Assembly: GCF_036711975.1 (NCBI RefSeq)
Contig: NC_091975.1
Coordinates: 2,048,501 to 2,112,500, forward strand
Source of the DNA: Onthophagus taurus
Lineage: Eukaryota > Arthropoda > Insecta > Coleoptera > Scarabaeidae
Reading direction: 5' to 3'
DNA: 64,000 nucleotides
Translations under genes and position numbers: made by a program
In this document: one piece after another, positions 4,403 to 41,992 of the stretch
How the letters are laid out: the number at the start of each line of letters is the position of its first letter
Numbering within the stretch: the first letter of the stretch is position 1
Notes under the pieces: generated by a model
What the model was told of the DNA's origin: nothing
Database searches by the model: none
The model's input: the letters and a program-made list of their open reading frames with translations, nothing else

Positions 4403-5340
4403 ATGTCTGCAACGTTTAAAAATGCGAAGCAAAAGCTTAAACAAAATGAGTTAAGGAAGATAATGAGCGAGCACAAAAATAAGTTGCAAAAATCAGCAAA
4501 GAAGATAGAATCACCTTTAGCAAAATATCCTTTTTTATTGTGTAGTATATCTGTTATTGTAATTTTAGATTTTTTCCTTAATTTTATTATACATACAACG
4601 AATCGGGACAATTAACCTGTATATTATGTAAATCTGTAGTAAGATCGGAAGCGGTGTGGAATGTTCACTTAAATTCAAAACAACACAAAGAAAATGTCGA
4701 AGCGGCAAAGAAATTAAAAGAAAAAACTAATAATTTCACAACGGCAATAAAAAGACCAGCCACACCACCTTTAGAAGTACCAATAAAAAAACTTAAAGGA
4801 ATTTTAAAAAACTCCACTTCAAAAACTGAAAATAATGATACAAATCAAACGGATCAACTTCCCGATGATTTCTTTGACACAAAAAAATCAAACTTAAATC
4901 TTCCACAACTTGGGCAACAAAACCAAGATAAAATTGAGAAAGAACCAGAGAAAATGGATGTAGAACAACCTGATTCCGCTTTACCCGAAGGATTCTTCGA
5001 TGATCCAAAATTAGATGCAAAAGCACGTAATTTAGAGTACAAAGATCCTGTTGAAGAAGAATGGGAAAAATTTCAGAAAGAAATTAGAGACGCTGACTTT
5101 GAATCAGCTGCTATAATAGCAGAAGACCAAGAAGAAGCCACCAATGAACGACAAATCGACGAAATTGATGAGCAAATTAAGAATTGGTCTAGAGTGGTTA
5201 ATTTGGAAAAAAAGAAGGTTGAGGTTATTGGGAACGTAGCGGAAAAAGATGAAAATATGAGTGTTGGGGATGATGAAGAGGTTAACGAAGAGGATTTTGA
5301 TGAATTTTTAGATTGGAGATCGAAAAAATCTTTTGTATGA
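4403..5340 (+). CDS. ZNF830: Zinc finger protein 830 homolog
   Basis: Two exons, 4403..4524 and 4593..5340, give 289 residues. Exon 1 encodes a basic N-terminus ending KIESPLAK. Exon 2 continues YNESGQLTC into one C2H2 finger (C50, C53, H66, H72; CILC then HLNSKQH), the layout of ZNF830, whose human form reads FAKYNRLGQLSC at this point. The rest is Lys/Glu-rich with repeated motifs LPDDFFD and LPEGFFD and a C-terminal acidic coiled region ending FDEFLDWRSKKSFV. Family knowledge: ZNF830 is a nuclear spliceosome-associated protein needed for early development and genome stability. The start is the ATG at 4403; an in-frame upstream ATG at 4325 would add residues unlike the family. The intron is of AT-AC type. 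Confidence 0.92.
4525..4592 (+). other. U12-type AT-AC intron in ZNF830
   Basis: The 68-base intron starts ATATCCTTTT and ends ATAC. A branch-site match TTCCTTAA lies at 4574-4581, 11-12 bases from the 3' end. These are the three hallmarks of a minor-spliceosome AT-AC intron. No AG acceptor can join exon 2 in frame, because the only upstream AG (ATTTTAG) is followed by an in-frame TAA. Confidence 0.85.
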
Positions 5341-7254
5341 AATATCTCTTAGGTTAGTTTTTTTTTTAATTTGATTAATAGATGGCGTGAGTAACTTTTA
5401 ATTTGTAAATATTTTTTGAAATAAATTTTAATAAAGTTATAAAAATAAATTAATATAAATAATTAATCCTTGGAAGATTTTTCGAAATCATTTCCGCTTA
5501 AATCGGATTTTTAAATAATTTTTAATCTTTGTGTTCAGTCTTTTGAAGCATTACAAGAAGCATCCGCTATTTTGTGTGGGAAAATACAAATTATAATAAT
5601 TATCATCTTTTGATTCACTTTAACATTAATATATTAGTTTCTAAATGATTTAAAAAGTAAATAAGTTAAATTAAAAATACACATGTATAACCTAACCAGT
5701 TTTAGTTTGACGTTTATTAATAAAGGGATTTTTAAACCTTTTTAATTGATTTTTAGGAGGGATTTTAGGGCTTGTCCGAACCCAACCCTATTTTATATGT
5801 ATAGAAATCAATATATTTTGAAATTAATGAAGCTGGTTTTAAAATTGCTTTTATTTGATTAATTAAAAATTGTTTATTTTTTTTAAATACTTTTTAGATA
5901 ATTAAATAGTGAAAATAAACGGATCCAATTCTAAATATAACCACACCCTTGACATGAAAGTTTTTTATATTCGTGCCAGATGTTTCCTATTTCCTACCTC
6001 CAGGCCAAACGTTTTAGAACCATACAAAGGAAGAGGAACGGAAAAAAGGTGTGTCTCATCCGTTTATTAAGAAGCAAAAAGAAATTTTTAAAAATAACTC
6101 TGTTGCAACTATTAAATTTGTAGTTTATCAAGATAAGAAATGTTTAAAGCGATAAGAATTATTATATTTGTGATTACAACATTTCTCTTTCGACAAATAA
6201 CCTTTGGATTTGGAGTCGTTTCGGTTATGTTTACATTTTATTGATACGTCGCGAAATTACTAAAACGATTATAAATGGCGACGATAACGTTAGAAATTCT
6301 TTGGTAAATTAAATCGAATGTACGCAAATAGGATTTATTGTTCGTGTTGTTGAGGATGCCGAAGGTCAAATTCCATTGTAAATTATTTCTTGTTTAGTTA
6401 ACACGAAATGACTTTATTGCGATGATTAAATCTAATTATTAACAAATCTGAAGTAATTTATAAAATGTATTTAAAATTTGTTTATATTATATAAAAATTA
6501 GTTTAAACTTGTAAAATTCTTTTATTAGTTATTTTCGAAAATGAATGTTGGTACTTTTGAAGTAATTTAGTCGTTTTGATAAATATCAAAATCATATATC
6601 TTCATTGTTTTCTATCCTTAAAAAACTTGTATGTACCATCCTTGTCTAATCATTCGGTTATGAAGTGTATACTTCTTTGAGAAATCTATGATTACCCCCA
6701 CCCACACTCCCAATCGCATTATGGCGTCCATCTAACCGTGGCAGTTGTGTTTTGGAATTTAGTAAGAAGCGGGGACGCGTTTTGTAAATCTCGTCCCGTT
6801 TATTTACGTTAATATTCCTCGGGAATACGAACTTTACTTCTCCCTAAAACGTTTCGCGAAGTGAATAAAGTTAAAAGTATCCGGGATGCGGAAACAAACC
6901 GCCCGGAAAGAAGAAGAGAAAAAAAATTGTTTTAAAAATAATGTTAAATAACGTTTGGTGGTGTATTTCGAAACATTTACAGCTTTCTTTTTATTACTCC
7001 TAATAATTATTTATTAAAATTTAGTGCTTTTTAACAATTAGTGATTTTTTTTATTATTTTTTTTCTCGGTCGGTAACAAGTAAAAAAAAAGAAAGTAAAC
7101 AAAGTTTTTTTAATGACAGCTGTCAAATAGGATTCGGTAAAAAAATGTGTCACAAAGATTAGAAAATTGAGCAAGAATTGCGGTTATTTTGAACGGAAGA
7201 TGTTTTTAATTATTTAATGCGAAAAGAAAAACGTGAAATAGTGATTTTATTTGA
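5341..7254. other. Intergenic, 5' flank of PI4KB
   Basis: No open frame with recognisable coding content. AGATGGCGTGAG (5380-5391) is a near match to the CTCF-type core just after ZNF830. A G+C-richer stretch at about 6700-6920 (GCGGGGACGCG, CTCGTCCCG, TTTCGCGAAG) is the best candidate for the PI4KB promoter or a noncoding first exon. Confidence 0.4.
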
Positions 7255-16209: not shown

Positions 16210-17297
16210 TCAACGTAAATGTACTTCAATATTGGGTACATTTTGATCAGGAAAGAACATACCCAAAGATATGATACCAAAAAGTAACGTAATAATAACC
16301 AAACCAACCGTTGAAGTAATCGTGAATAATTGGGGATAATTATATCTCGTGTACCACGCCAAAGATAATAAAACACTTACAAGTACCAATAAAAGATTAC
16401 CTAAATCCCAATCGCGTTCACCATTTCTCCGTCCTGATCTTGAAGAATTTGTATCCGATCCAGTCTCTAATATGGGTCTTGTTTGATGAATCAAACAATG
16501 AACGACGCAATTATCAAATAAACCGAATTGTTCTAAAGTTTCTTCTTCACGTTGCAATAAGTGACCATTAAAAATCAATTTAATCCGTTTGTTTTCAGCC
16601 ATTTCCGTTGAGAAGTGCCTTTGTTTAAAATCCTTTAAGGACTCATTTAATTTTGCATCGACCGATTTTAATTCATCATTTAAATATTTCAGTTTTATTT
16701 TAATGTTGTTTGAGTCAACATTGGGGAGATTAAAACCGTACGTTGGGGGTGCTTGTTGAGTTTCATTTATAAACGGGGCGCTAGGTTCCGGATCTGAAGT
16801 TGTTTGATTTGAACTACTCGCTCCATCTTGACTTATTTCTCGATTTGTTTCCGCGTTTGTTTTATTAAAGAAAGCTAACCTTCTTTGCCTAATTACATTA
16901 TTATCCGCATCCATTTTTTTAATTAAATTTTGTCGATCGTCTTGAAATGTGTTTTCGACAGTTTGGGTTGATATCGTTTCTCTATTATTATTTTGGGGGG
17001 TTTCTACAGTTTCTTGAGTACTCTCAACTAAAGTAGTTGCTACTGTGTGGTTTGTAAGTCTAGGAATGTGTCTGTTCCTTCGAAATCGCCTATCGAAAAC
17101 GTAAACGGCTCTTATTTGACGATTATCCGGTGTATTTGTGGATCGCCAAGCTACTAAAACTACGAAGAAATACTTTAATTTAATCTTTTTTTATTATTAA
17201 GAAGGGTTGTACTTGCCTACAGAAACGATTATAATCGCTACGAATAAGTGGGTGAATTCGGTAAAAAACTCATCAATGCACAGAAGTTTATAGAACC
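16210..17297 (-). CDS. TMUB: Transmembrane and ubiquitin-like domain protein (TMUB1/2 type), first codon unresolved
   Basis: Exons 17297..17217 and 17159..16210 give about 343 residues. The N-terminal span (HLFVAIIIVSVVLVAW) leads into a disordered Ser/Thr/Asn-rich linker. A ubiquitin-like domain follows (IKIKLKYLNDELKSVDAKL through RIKLIFNGHLLQ and FDNCVVHCLI), then two C-terminal spans (LLLVLVSVLLSLAWYTRY, STVGLVIITLLFGIISLGMF). This order matches TMUB1/TMUB2, ER and endosomal membrane proteins linked to ER-associated degradation. The intron is best read as GC-AG: donor GTAG|GCAAGT, acceptor TTCTTCGTAG|TT. A 48-base GT-AG alternative (TCT|GTAGGC to ATTAAAG|TAT) also stays open but has weaker sites. 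Exon 17297 begins after TTTTTTTAG; the upstream exon with the ATG could not be settled. Confidence 0.88.
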
Positions 17298-17723: not shown

Positions 17724-18345
17724 TTAATTTTCACAAGCGCAATAACAAGTTGTATGATAACGAAAATTTTCAGTCGTCAACTGTCCATTTTCCGTTACAG
17801 CAATTAACGGCAGTTCAATGTATTCTTTATCACATCTTGTATTCATGGTGCTAACTGTGATTTCACCACAATTATCTCTGCAATCAAAAATAACCTTCAG
17901 ATTTGGGGTTCATTAAATCATTTTTGATTAATTTACTTGCCTGCATTTAACTACTTCTATTTCTTGTCTTAGACTTTCAACGTTAACGATAAACATAGTT
18001 TGATCGTTGTTGTTCATAGCAGCTTGAGGCAACAATTTTCTTTTGGTTTCAACGCAGTAATTTTCAAATTCTTCAGCAAAACGTGTCTGTACTTGTAGAT
18101 ATGCTGTATTGTTTAATTTAGTAATTAATTCCTCGATTTTTTTATAAGGATAATTTGTGACATTGAACCAGAAATTTTCAGAATTTTCTGCGCCATTTAA
18201 ATCTGGTGTGAAAATGCCTTTAAAAGTTTCATAAAATTAATTTCAAATTATGAAAAAAAAGAAAATTATTACCTTCACAGATTGAGGTGGATGTTAACAT
18301 CATTAACATCATATAAATACTTAATATCGAAGATGAATTAATCAT
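17724..18345 (-). CDS. Spätzle-like cystine-knot cytokine A
   Basis: Three exons, 18345..18273, 18202..17941 and 17877..17724, give 162 residues. It opens with a hydrophobic signal peptide (residues 1 to about 24, MMLMMLTSTSIC). The mature part has the Spätzle layout: FNVTNYPYKKIEELITKL (pro-region, NYP motif), YCVETKRKLLPQAAMN, the strand MFIVNVESLRQEIEVVKC, then CGEI, TRCDKEYIELPLIAV and a terminal YCAC. Family knowledge: Spätzle proteins are secreted, cut by a clip protease, and bind Toll receptors as disulfide-linked dimers. No basic clip-protease site is obvious, so processing is uncertain. Intron 2 reads as GC-AG (TGCAG|GCAAGT to GATTGCAG|A). It is head-to-head with Spätzle-like gene B, with 232 bases between start codons. 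It is too diverged to assign to a named Spätzle subtype. Confidence 0.8.
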
Positions 18346-18373
18346 TGTTGATGGAGTTGATTCTAAATTGAAC

Positions 18374-18405
18374 TGTGAAAGAATTAATTTTTATCACTAT
18401 TTATA
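18374..18405 (-). promoter_or_regulatory. TATA box and initiator of Spätzle-like gene A
   Basis: TATAAAT at 18405..18399 and an initiator-like CACAGTT whose A is at 18374 are 31 bases apart, the canonical arthropod spacing. This gives a 5' UTR of about 29 bases. Confidence 0.65.
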
Positions 18406-18577
18406 CCTTGCTCTATTTTATATTAACGATAAGAACAAGCGCTGACCTTTTAATTATTATCATTTAACATTTTAAATTCTAAATAAAACCACAAAACCAC
18501 ATATAAAAACGTCACCTAATAAACATGGATATAAATATAAGCGAAAAGTTACTTTATTTTTTATAAACCGCTGAAAA

Positions 18578-19299
18578 ATGTTCGTTAATAACTTCATCTT
18601 CGCCTTTTTTGTAACAACTTTGGTAAGCTCAACAAATTTAAAGTTTCTTTTTTGGGTTAATTTTTTTCTTTTTTTAGATTAACTTTGCTTCTACATCATC
18701 ATTAACCATCTCAAAAGAAGAATTAGATCGATTAAAAAGTAAATGCAATAAAATTAATGAAGTTTATGATTAAAAAAAGAAACTTTTTAGGTAGCTGCAA
18801 GGAAGATTTTTGTGAATCGGTGGAAAATTACCCAGAAATTTTAATTAATCAACTTTTAAAACAAAATGATGCCATTGCAAAAGAATATTTCAACGGATCA
18901 TTACCGCCGAATATTACTAATCGGGACAACATCGAATTTACTAATATGTGTGAAGTTTCCGAATATATCGTTGGTCCAAAAATCTTTAAGGATACCGGAA
19001 ATATTCCCAGGATTATAGTTAATACCGAAGAGTATCATCAATATGTTCTATTAAAAACTTGTGGGTGAGTTTTTATTTTATTCTTTTTTACTATTTTATT
19101 TTAATTTGATTATTATTTAAGATCTAAAGATGGTGATTGTACAAAGACACCAATTCCTGGCCACGAAGTTCGATGTATTCCAGAAAAAATAAATATTAAG
19201 TTAATTTTTTTGGATGAAGGGCCAAGTTTTGGAGTTGGAAGCTTTGATATGTATGGGGGTTGTGCTTGTGCTTATAAATCAATTACACATAATAAATAA
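18578..19299 (+). CDS. Spätzle-like cystine-knot cytokine B
   Basis: Four exons, 18578-18622, 18678-18738, 18791-19064 and 19122-19299, give 185 residues; all are GT-AG and in phase. A signal peptide (MFVNNFIFAFFVTTLINFAS) is followed by a short pro-region. The Spätzle hallmarks come next: CKEDFCESVENYPEILINQL, NMCEVSEYIVGPKIF, IIVNTEEYHQYVLLKTC and a final CACAYK. The MCE...YIVGPK and IVNT.EYHQ blocks are the strongest family match. Family knowledge: a secreted Toll ligand precursor active as a dimer in immunity or development. The protein is shorter than classical Spätzle, with little pro-domain, and the last part of the knot is reduced. TATAAATA lies at 18530, but I see no good initiator 30 bases on. 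It shares its promoter region with gene A and may be co-regulated. Confidence 0.88.
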
Positions 19300-19879: not shown

Positions 19880-20390
19880 GAACGATGGTGGAAAAGCACA
19901 CTATGTCTGTAAATCTTAAAAAGACTGATATTGTTCTTTTCACCAAACAGTTTCCTGGGACACTTAACATCACTCCATTTCTGCATCAGTCCATTAATCT
20001 TTGGTCTAGAGGTAAAATATCTTGGACAAAGGATTGATTTGGAAATCACAGTACTTGGAAAACCAAAAAAACAACAATTGTACTCACCCAATGTCAAAGG
20101 GCAGAATCCCCATATAGTCCTACGACACTGCAGGTTATGTAAGCATATGTTCTATATAAAGCTGGCAAACACATCCCTTTGTGAAGGGTGTGAAATGGAA
20201 GATCAGACGGTAAGGCATATTGTTTGTGACTGTGTCCCAACCTCAATTTTGGACATAAAGAACATACCCTTCTGTTCTATATTAATGTTCATTAAAATCT
20301 TAGGCTGGTTTTCATATCCCTGAATGAACTGTACATTGTGGGGAAGTACAAAGGGCCCGCTGGGGCCTAAGTGCTGTGAAAGAATGCATA
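19880..20390 (+). mobile_element. Jockey-like LINE remnant (RT end joined to Cys-rich tail)
   Basis: The plus strand reads LKKTDIVLFTKQFPGT and, in a shifted frame, LEVKYLGQRIDL. These are the degenerate TEIVLFTR and VKYLGV motifs at the end of a LINE reverse transcriptase. Soon after comes the C-terminal zinc-knuckle region (RHCRLCKHM, LANTSLCEGCEMEDQTVRHI, VCDC). The RNase H domain normally between them is missing, so the copy is internally deleted as well as frameshifted. Confidence 0.8.
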
Positions 20391-36198: not shown

Positions 36199-36690
36199 TT
36201 TAATAGTTCCACTTCTTGTTTTCTTATTTTTTCTCCCCAATTTTTTTTTTAGTTAATGACCTTTCTCGCCTCTCAACGAAAACCTTTCCTTTTCTTATTT
36301 TCTGATAATTTCCAACTGTCAAAAGAACAGTAATAATTCATTGTAAAAAGGAATAAAATTTAAAATTCATGTTTTATTTAAGTGCATCACATCAAATTAG
36401 TTCCAGTTGCTCGTGAAATAACAACAATTTAAATTTTTTTTTATTATATTTGGGTATTTCCTTTAACCTTAACGTTGGATAATAAATTATTATAAAAATT
36501 CTATTAAACATAACACTTATTATTCGCATTTACAATTTATATTCATACTCAACAACAATGGATGTAACCGGGACAATTTCCAATGACAAATCTAATTGTA
36601 ATAATGGTATAAATTCAGGTAGAACGCACCATAAATTTAGTCGTCACGATGTTTTTCAACAACTCACATCAAACTCTTATTAAAACGAAC

Positions 36691-37756
36691 ATGTTGTTAA
36701 TAACATTTTTGATATCTCTTTTATTTCAAAATATATCTGGACAACTTGCAACAGCTCTTCCTTACGTTTGCGTTCCAATAGGAACCTGTACAACACCCAC
36801 CAGTAGTCCTAATGTAATTGATCCAAGAATTGTAACTCCAACAACGTCGCCTTGTCCAGCGGGACAAGAAGCTTGTTTCATAACATCCCCAACTGGTCAA
36901 TGTGGAAGAAGGTATGTTCAAAATGTGAATACCGCTGATGGTGCAGCCACCTTAGGAGCTTTCCCATGGTTGGCATATATCACGAATCAAACTGGTTACA
37001 CAGGAGTTGGTGTTTTGATAAATCCTCAAACTGTTTTGACAGCAGCTCATAAAGTTTGCTTAAACGAACAAACTCCAAGCAATGTAAGAGTTAGTTTAGG
37101 GGTTTATTCACCAAGTAATATGGCAACTGCACAAAATTCAACAGCTTCATCTATAGCGATTCATCCAAATTTTAATTGTGCTCAACCATGGACATTAATT
37201 AATGATATTGCTGTTATTAGACTATCCACACCAATTTCAATTGGTAGTAAAAGCTAATTTTTGATTAATTTCTTTTTACTTAATACATCTTTTTGTAGGT
37301 ATTCAAACGAACGTTGGAACAGCTTGTCTTCCACCAGCTGCAGCTCCTGGTACATCACCGTACGTGGGCAGATCTTGTACTGTTGCTGGATGGGGCCAAA
37401 CTGGTTTCGGTACAAACGACGCACCAACAAATCCCCAAAAACAAGTAACAGTACCAATAGTAACATATCAAGAATGTAGAGCTTCAATGAGTAGAGCAGA
37501 TCTTCTGGGTAGTGCTGTCGATAGATTCTTAGATCCTAACGGAGAGATTTGCGCTGGAGGATTAGCCCAAAGGGATGCTTGCACTCAAGATGGCGGAGCT
37601 CCTTTGGTTTGTGCAGATACAACAACTGGCCAATTTTATATTGCTGGGTTGGTTATTTGGGGAAAAAGATGTGGATTACCTGGAGTATATGGGGTTTATG
37701 TTAATGTTCCCGTTTATAGACAATGGATTGATACGGTTATAGCTAGTTTTGGTTAA
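36691..37756 (+). CDS. Clip-type serine protease homolog (catalytic Ser replaced by Gly)
   Basis: Two exons, 36691-37246 and 37299-37756 (phase 1, donor GGTA|GTAAAA, acceptor TTTTGTAG|GT), give 337 residues. The ATG at 36691 opens directly on a signal peptide (MLLITFLISLLFQNISG); an in-frame ATG at 36649 is the alternative. A reduced clip-like domain follows (CVPIGTC, IDPRIV, CPAGQEACF). The S1 domain then starts after CGRRYV. The histidine (LTAAHK) and aspartate (NDIAVI) are kept, but the serine motif GDSGGP reads QDGGAP, so it should be inactive. Family knowledge: such homologs act as cofactors in prophenoloxidase activation and related haemolymph cascades. The last Cys pair of the clip is altered (CF instead of CC). 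Confidence 0.92.
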
Positions 37757-40079: not shown

Positions 40080-41992
40080 CAGGGTGCCCATTATGTATGG
40101 AATATTGTATATATCTTGGCAAGTATCAACTTTATAAAAAAACATTTTATACAAAAGTTGGTTAGTATTTTATTTGCCATAATAAGACACCATTCAATTG
40201 TTTTTATTTCAGAAAACAAATGAGCAACGAATAACATTTAATTTTTTTTAAATGGCAATGTACCCTTTTATTAGGCTTATTTGATAGAGATTTCTTTTCT
40301 CTTTATGATGACGTAAAATTTTTGTACCCTTACATCAGAAAATTTTTGCATAAAATGTAAAAATTGTTTATTAAGAAAATTTAACCAATAACATTAATCT
40401 AGATATCCGAGATCGTCAACTACCTCGAATTATTACCGTAAATTAAATCTACATACAAAATAAAACAAATAAACTAAAAATTAGTGTAAATGCAAAATTA
40501 TTAAACTTTGAAGACAAAACGAAATTAGCACTAAAATGGTTTTCACGACAATAAATGTTCAAAATGTTCACCATTAACTGCAAGGCAGTGGCCCAATCTA
40601 TCATAAAAGGCTTGAAAAGAATTTCTTAGCGATCTGGGAGAAACAGCTGCAGCTTCATCTTTTATTCGTTGCTCTAATTATGTCAGATTTTGAGGTCGGT
40701 TTACATAAACTTTAGATTTTAAATATTCCCAGAAGAAGAAATCGCAAGGTGTAAGATCCGGAGATCGGGGTGGCCACTCTACAGACCCTCTTCTGCCTAT
40801 CCAACGGGCCGGAAATACCGTATCTAAATATCGGCGTACATCTAAATGATAGTGGGGCGGTGCCCCATCTTGTTGAAACCAAAGATCATCAAGATTTTCT
40901 TGGCAAGCTGGGATAATTTGCTGTTGCAATAATTGTAAATAACGGTGACCAGTTAGAGTACCTCGAATAAAGAAAGGTCCAATTATGTGATCTGCACAAA
41001 TTTCCATCCATACGTTTAATTTCTGTGGTGTTTGAGTATGATTTTGAATCATCCAATTTGGGATTTTTAGCGGCCCAATATCGAGAATTTTGCTTATTTA
41101 CATTACCATTTAAACAAAACGTAGCCTCGTCAGAGAAAACCATATTATTGAGAAAATTTGGATTGCTGTTGATTCGCTCCATCATAAATTCACAAAATTC
41201 AACACGTCGACCGTAGTCATCTTCGGATAATTCTTGCAATAAAGTCGGTTTGTACGGATGTAAATTTTCTGCATGTAATATTTTGTGTATTGAACCTTTA
41301 CTTAGAGCATGGTTTAAACATAACTGACGAGTTGAAATGTTTGGATTTTCTTCGATTTCTATGAGAATATCGATCTTTTTATCTTCATCTGTTGCAGATC
41401 TCTGCGGACCAGTCTTTGGCAGATCTTTAACGTTACTAGTTTCCCTAAAACGTTTCGAAGTTTTGCTAACTACTGATTGAGTGATTGGTTCTCGATGTGG
41501 ATAACGCTCATTGAAAATTTCATATACTTCTAATTGTGTTCGTTTGCGATCCCCATAACCGACCATAATTAAAATTTCTATGCGTTCAGTTTCTGTTAAA
41601 TGAACCATTTTTCTTTTTTGATCTACCAACTTATTTAAATAAACAAGATTCTGTCACATTCAATAGCTTACATTCAATTGTTAGGACAAATAAGATTTCG
41701 GATATCTAGATTCACATTTTTTTCAAAAATTTTCTAGTATAAGGGTACTAAAATTTTACGTCATCGTAAAGAGAAAAAAAATCTCTATCAAATGAGCCTA
41801 ACGAAAGGGTACATTGCCATTTAAAAAAAATTAAATGTTATTCGTTGCTCATTTGTTTTCTGAAATAAAAACAATTGAATGGTGTCTTATTATGGCAAAT
41901 CAAATATTAAACAACTTTTGTATAAAATGTTTTTTTGTAAAGTTGATACTTACCAAGATATATACTATATTCCATACATAATGGGCATCCTG
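40080..41992 (-). mobile_element. Mariner-like transposon with long inverted repeats, TSD TA
   Basis: Left end CAGGGTGCCCATTATGTATG and right end CAGGATGCCCATTATGTATG (reverse complement) are flanked by TA (40078-40079 and 41993-41994). The inverted repeats extend about 260 bases on each side, including TGACGTAAAATTTT and the GGGTACATTGCCATTT block. The copy carries a decayed transposase on the minus strand. Confidence 0.92.
40543..41608 (-). pseudogene. Mariner-family transposase, frameshift and stop
   Basis: The first part has HTH segments (TETERIEILIMVGYGDR, STRQLCLNHALSKGSIHKIL) and the first catalytic Asp (VFSDEATF). A frameshift near 41030 then moves to the frame with MIQNHTQTPQKLNVWMEI and the second Asp (LWFQQDGAPPHYH). 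The third Asp follows (RSPDLTPCDFFFW), with 36 residues between Asp 2 and Asp 3. An in-frame TAA near 40680 interrupts the tail, which continues as EQRIKDEAAAVSPRSLRNSF to a TGA at 40543. It is non-functional as it stands. Confidence 0.92.

Follow-up and report, generated by a model that had tools for sequence, protein, structure and literature searches.

Two compact Spätzle-family genes, arranged head to head and lacking a cysteine at the canonical dimer position, in Onthophagus taurus

The stretch of Onthophagus taurus DNA analysed here (64,000 nucleotides, C10:2048501-2112500, hereafter the window) contains what, judged from its sequence, is an intact pair of compact Spätzle-family genes, A and B. 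The reading we favour, with a probability of roughly 0.7, is that both encode intact, fast-diverging Spätzle cytokine precursors which are most likely protease-activated Toll ligands in an enlarged family. The feature that gives A and B their interest, the absent dimer cysteine, is seen in other genes of the same genome and has a precedent in a beetle, the Spz7 protein of Tribolium castaneum (PMC9861120). Because of these family relatives and this published precedent, and with both proteins falling within the Pfam family PF16077, the pair does not represent the undescribed system that an earlier note on this DNA had suspected. A search of the titles and opening lines of abstracts in the open-licence PubMed Central literature revealed no head-to-head Spätzle pair among the matches listed.

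The Spätzle-like identity that the note had proposed is borne out by the PF16077 (Spaetzle) profile, which has a curated cut-off of 27 bits and which matches A over residues 87-177 with 41 bits (E 3e-10) and B over residues 77-165 with 44.3 bits (E 2.9e-11). The Spätzle reading is right for both proteins since both scores lie above the cut-off, and the profile comparison that had been named beforehand as a possible refutation thus found similarity instead. In knot alignments, A scores a z of 9.4 against B, and Drosophila Spätzle gives 7.0 with A and 11.8 with B; in no case did any of 2000 shuffles reach the score. The knot-like cysteine layout likewise stands, with six knot cysteines at conserved spacing in each protein (37-7-12-29-2 in A and 37-4-12-29-2-2 in B, compared with 37-7-14-30-1-2 in Drosophila), although the interval between Cys2 and Cys3 is short in B, at 4 residues where Drosophila, Aedes and most relatives have 6-9. 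The short motifs by which the pair was originally recognized all recur in the spliced products, MCE, IVGPK, IVNTEEYHQ and NYP in A and NYP, MFIVNV, LRQEIEVVKC and CYCAC in B. Both N-termini are hydrophobic, the best 12-residue Kyte-Doolittle means being 2.09 and 2.10. A single-sequence search of the PDB matched B to Drosophila Spätzle C-106 (E 0.0032); the same kind of search gave no Spätzle match in the PDB for A, which counts against the favoured reading, while NCBIfam returned no families and added nothing. Comparison of 1947 open frames of at least 20 aa in the window with a four-sequence knot profile revealed no further Spätzle exon, only four exons, all belonging to A and B, passing the inclusion threshold; since A and B are themselves members of that profile their match is built in, and a strongly diverged copy might escape it.

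The gene models derived from the sequence are given in Table 1. They confirm two spliced genes arranged head to head on opposite strands, and the limits of the pair as first reported, 17724 and 19299, are exact, these being the final bases of the stop codons of B and A respectively. The roughly 230 bases said to separate the genes amount to 232 bp from start codon to start codon, the promoter role of this interval being presumed. Every exon of both genes is open with the six knot cysteines retained, AATAAA occurs a short way past each stop codon, and the five introns measure 52 to 63 nt, four of them being GT-AG while the GC donor of the fifth sits in a strong context. The interval between the genes contains five TATA-like 7-mers, counting both strands, against 1.9 expected from block shuffles. 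No strict kappa-B consensus occurs in these 232 bp, which carries little weight in so short a stretch, and a bacterial promoter scan, a method not suited to insects, gained nothing; by its motif content, immune induction is neither shown nor excluded.

Table 1. Features of the Spätzle-like gene pair in window coordinates.
Feature	Position or size	Strand	Remarks
Gene A, 185 aa Spätzle-like precursor	18578..19299	+	PF16077 41 bits; model from sequence
Gene A exons	18578-18622, 18678-18738, 18791-19064, 19122-19299	+	model from sequence
Gene A introns	55, 52, 57 nt	+	all GT-AG; phases 0, 1, 2
A exon 3	18791..19064	+	FCESVENYP pro-region motif; Arg80 candidate cleavage site (C1-9); knot Cys1-Cys2
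A exon 4, coding part	19122..19296	+	knot Cys3-Cys6; end YGGCAC; Gly at canonical dimer-cysteine position
Interval between A and B start codons, presumed to contain both promoters	18346..18577		232 bp
Gene B, 167 aa Spätzle-like precursor	17724..18345	-	PF16077 44.3 bits; model from sequence
Gene B exons	18345-18273, 18217-17941, 17877-17724	-	model from sequence
Gene B introns	55 nt (GT-AG, phase 1), 63 nt (GC-AG, phase 2)	-	
B exon 2	17941..18217	-	NYP motif; Arg70 candidate cleavage site (C1-9); knot Cys1-Cys2
B intron 2	17878..17940	-	GC donor CAG/GCAAGT; 2 bases past Cys2 codon; phase 2
B exon 3	17724..17877	-	knot Cys3 onward; end TTCYCACEN; Thr at canonical dimer-cysteine position

A search of the genome (290.8 Mb in 33 contigs) with PF16077 gave 15 matches, all above the cut-off, which group by exon into 12 knots including that of B; A is absent from this list and was recovered with its own protein as the query. 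The genome holds at least 13 complete Spätzle knots and one first half, L023d, the figure of 13 being a minimum, since scoring was confined to the best candidates. Published counts of Spätzle sequences are 16 for Tribolium and 20 for Onthophagus (PMC8296651), while seven spz genes have been studied in Tribolium (PMC9861120) and nine in Tenebrio (PMC8509142). Two of the 13 knots, similar to each other and on one strand of L024 (C5:5768500+, 4680-5009 and 5128-5418), are separated by 142 bp and might serve a single gene as alternative last exons. A knot in L028 (C3:7893000+, 4500-5033) scores above the Pfam cut-offs of two families, Spaetzle with 33.1 bits and NGF with 28.6 bits. The half-copy L023d (L023, C10:6373000+, minus strand, 4863-4567) has RRKR ahead of Cys1 and a splice donor at the usual family site; no second exon is recognizable in the approximately 1.3 kb downstream, and L023d is probably broken.

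A second divergent Spätzle pair is found at L022 (C10:259000+), 1.8 Mb from A and B on the same contig, and consists of S1 (minus strand, 4149-3661; C10:262663-263112) and a Spz1-like gene (plus strand, 6413-7059), with 2.3 kb between the knot-bearing open frames. S1 is the best genome match, self aside, of both A (35%) and B (28%). It shares with A and B an arginine nine residues ahead of the first knot cysteine and ends in GCYCAC, sharing the terminal CYCAC of B, but differs from them in that its knot lies in one open frame without the family intron and in an upstream open stretch which suggests a longer pro-region.

The position of the intron within the knot ties A and B to this family. An intron two bases past the Cys2 codon, in phase 2, interrupts seven of 12 knots (A, B, L023a, L023b, L023c, L027 and L026), the Spz1-like gene has one of 50 nt and equal phase that lies one codon further on, and the knot is uninterrupted in S1, both L024 knots and L025. 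This common place and phase supports the gene models of A and B, the GC-AG intron 2 of B coinciding with the family intron in both respects. An alternative intron 2 for B, 42 nt long, GT-AG and in phase 0, would leave the frame open too, but it departs from the family intron in both place and phase, and the modelled family introns are longer, at 50-63 nt; the comparison suggests that it is the 63-nt GC-AG form which fits the family. A characteristic intron-exon structure has been described in the knots of Spz, Spz2, Spz3 and Spz5, its exact place not being given (PMC8296651).

Kinship among the knots is poorly resolved. A maximum-likelihood tree with ultrafast bootstrap was computed for 14 knots, comprising 12 of the 13 from the genome and two PDB sequences, L028 (weak, and matching NGF too) and L023d (a first half only) being left out; the tree is unrooted and its supports span 40 to 100. 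B joins S1 (support 76) and L023a, L023b and L023c join L027 (82), while A remains unplaced on a long branch, the branch lengths of A and B being 2.6 and 2.0. One split (63) separates L024, L025, L026, the Spz1-like gene and the two references from the other seven knots, while another (66) places B and S1 on the side of the canonical genes, away from A and L023. Knot identity between A and B is 22-24%, no closer than that of either to other members, and since the two are not sisters in the tree, B joining S1 and A being unplaced, a recent inverted duplication is unlikely to have produced the pair. That it is a copy of the divergent pair of S1 and the Spz1-like gene would be a guess, A and the Spz1-like gene being only 25% identical.

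Twelve of the 13 complete knots were aligned with Drosophila Spätzle and Aedes Spz1C. The canonical dimer column was taken as the first C of the CCxC motif, corresponding by PDB chain numbering to Cys-94 of Spz1C, the central interchain cysteine, which is conserved in Drosophila (PMC9427763). Only four of the 12 knots (both L024 knots, L025 and L026) have a cysteine here, whereas the other eight, which are A, B and six of the remaining ten, present glycine (A, S1, L023a, L023b, L023c and L027), threonine (B) or alanine (the Spz1-like gene). Exactly six knot cysteines are found in A, L023a, L023b, L023c and L027; B and S1 have in common an extra cysteine two residues past the last knot cysteine (CYCAC), and the Spz1-like gene has an additional one between its final two knot cysteines. 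Neither a wrong splice nor a frameshift can explain the situation in A, since the dimer site lies within a single exon with in-frame cysteines 3' of it. The idea that B retains the usual dimer cysteine, displaced by one residue, was dropped after more knots had been aligned; because Cys4 is followed by the same 29-residue spacing in A and B, the first two of the terminal cysteines of B are knot cysteines and the last is the extra one.

The seven knots with glycine or threonine at the dimer site (A, B, S1, L023a, L023b, L023c and L027), five of which have no spare cysteine, do not represent seven independent losses, some of them being closely related to each other, and as the tree is unrooted they may or may not form one clade. 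The new subfamily envisaged in the earlier note stands in part: A and B do fall among the knots in which the canonical dimer cysteine is missing, but the tree does not establish these as one clade, and a beetle Spätzle reported to lack it has already been published (PMC9861120). Selective constraint was measured on the six-cysteine relatives rather than on A or B and with dS near saturation, giving dN 0.13 and dS 1.6 for L023b and L027 (95 codons) and dN 0.27 and dS 1.17 for L027 and L023c (93 codons); in the last of the three comparisons, L023b with L023c, no dS was estimable. On these values L023b, L023c and L027 look to be under constraint.

The closest published parallel is Tribolium spz7, which is reported to lack the dimer cysteine as A and B do (PMC9861120). 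The full set of seven cysteines is not present in Tc-spz2, 4, 6 and 7 according to the same report, so that the seventh, interchain cysteine is not a strict family criterion. Tc-spz7 keeps its cleavage arginine, only Tc-spz6 being said to be without one, just as A and B have a candidate arginine. Tribolium pupae left with spz7 alone and challenged with Ml retained as much Cec2 as controls and more Cec3 than the all-knockdown, which was seen for none of the other six spz genes, and knockdown of spz7 lowered both Cec2 and Cec3 (PMC9861120). Knockdown produced no significant change in survival (PMC9861120), which counts against the favoured reading. The authors did not decide between a spz7 that acts without dimerizing and an error in the sequence as the cause of the missing cysteine (PMC9861120). 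Sequencing error is unlikely as a general account, given seven knots of another genome with glycine or threonine at this position, and the dN/dS values of the relatives together with Tribolium spz7 suggest, by analogy, that knots without the dimer cysteine may be functional as a type.

A and B had been thought to have no obvious cleavage site, a view contradicted by the arginine found nine residues ahead of the first knot cysteine in both (C1-9), which is the sole arginine of the pro-region in B and one of two in A. The argument that they might be constitutively active ligands rested on the absence of such a site and loses its support. Cleavage here would release mature chains of 105 aa (A) and 97 aa (B), and neither protein contains an RX[KR]R furin motif. 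Their pro-regions are indeed small, with 62 (A) and 46 (B) residues ahead of the candidate arginine if the signals are assumed to end at residues 18 and 24. The Drosophila Spätzle precursor is much longer than A or B. Both pro-regions include the stretch E-[DN]-F-x3-V-x-NYP, but on their own they align weakly, with a score reached by 41 of 2000 shuffles, which counts against the favoured reading. Among seven other genes checked, the likely basic residue is at -9 in S1 (Arg) and L023a (Lys), at -10 in the Spz1-like gene, L023b and L026 (all Arg), at -12 in L027 (Arg) and at -13 in L023c (Arg), with an additional lysine closer to the knot in L023b, L023c and L027; furin-like runs occur in L026 and in the half-copy L023d. 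The predicted cleavage sites of Tribolium Spätzle proteins were taken as arginines too (PMC9861120).

Of the structurally characterized proteins, Drosophila Spätzle C-106 (PDB 4bv4, 3e07) has a similar cysteine spacing and a mature length of about 100 aa, and Cys1 is residue 10 or 11 of its PDB chains, which places the cut some ten residues ahead of Cys1; its knot is 24% identical to A and 20% to B, and its interchain cysteine has no counterpart in either. Aedes aegypti Spz1C (PDB 7b1b, 7b1c) shares the same knot, with identities of 34% (A) and 22% (B) in pairwise global alignment and 24% and 23% in the multiple alignment. Its chains are joined by two interchain disulphides (PMC9427763), whereas A has no spare cysteine.

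From the known Toll pathway we infer that A and B would be secreted as zymogens and cut after the C1-9 arginine by a trypsin-like, SPE/Easter-type clip-domain protease, and that the freed knot of about 100 residues would act on a Toll receptor. A would be active as a monomer or a non-covalent dimer, while B might form a dimer linked via its extra C-terminal cysteine, and the most likely role of the two would be to increase the specificity or dose of Toll signalling rather than to constitute a separate system. Against this, dimerization is indispensable for signalling by Drosophila Spätzle in structural work cited in PMC9861120, and A is without a spare cysteine. A bolder proposal, which we consider unlikely, is that the covalent dimer was given up in an expanded branch, that A and its six-cysteine relatives are monomeric or non-covalent Toll ligands, that B and S1 were relinked by a new C-terminal cysteine, and that A and B are a matched pair of ligands co-transcribed from one short interval. 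The seven knots with glycine or threonine at the dimer site make non-covalent Spätzle signalling testable with small natural proteins; in other respects A and B are a further example of the rapid turnover of Spätzle genes outside the flies.

The lack of a cysteine at the canonical dimer position in both proteins also fits inhibitory or decoy ligands, whose knots would occupy Toll without bringing receptors together, but both keep the candidate cleavage arginine and Tribolium spz7, likewise reported without the dimer cysteine, promotes antimicrobial gene induction (PMC9861120), an analogy that contributes to making such a role unlikely. Decay of one or both genes, to which the long branches, the GC splice donor of B and the related half-copy L023d might point, appears very unlikely with all exons open, six knot cysteines in each protein and AATAAA soon after both stops. 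Least probable of these is a heterodimeric ligand of A and B co-expressed from the common promoter interval: the start codons lie 232 bp apart on opposite strands and the dimer position is altered in both, but A and B are not joined in the tree, where B joins S1, and the divergent neighbour of S1 is the Spz1-like gene rather than an A-like one. Protease-activated Toll ligands thus remain the reading we prefer for A and B.

Elsewhere in the window, a serine protease-like gene with its Trypsin domain in two pieces is present at 36613-37756, 17.3 kb from the Spätzle pair. It shows a sub-threshold match to the PPAF-2-type CLIP domain (20.6 bits against a cut-off of 26) and looks like a non-catalytic homologue, as the region of the active-site serine reads QDGGAPL. 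Adjoining B, a ubiquitin-domain gene on the minus strand (16210-16914; PF00240, 39.1 bits) is a possible synteny marker. Two further features were recognized by eye: overlapping minus-strand frames in two registers at 40678-41653, which look like a frameshift-broken mariner-type transposase, and an open frame on the plus strand downstream of A (19913-20323), which resembles the tail of a retroelement protein.
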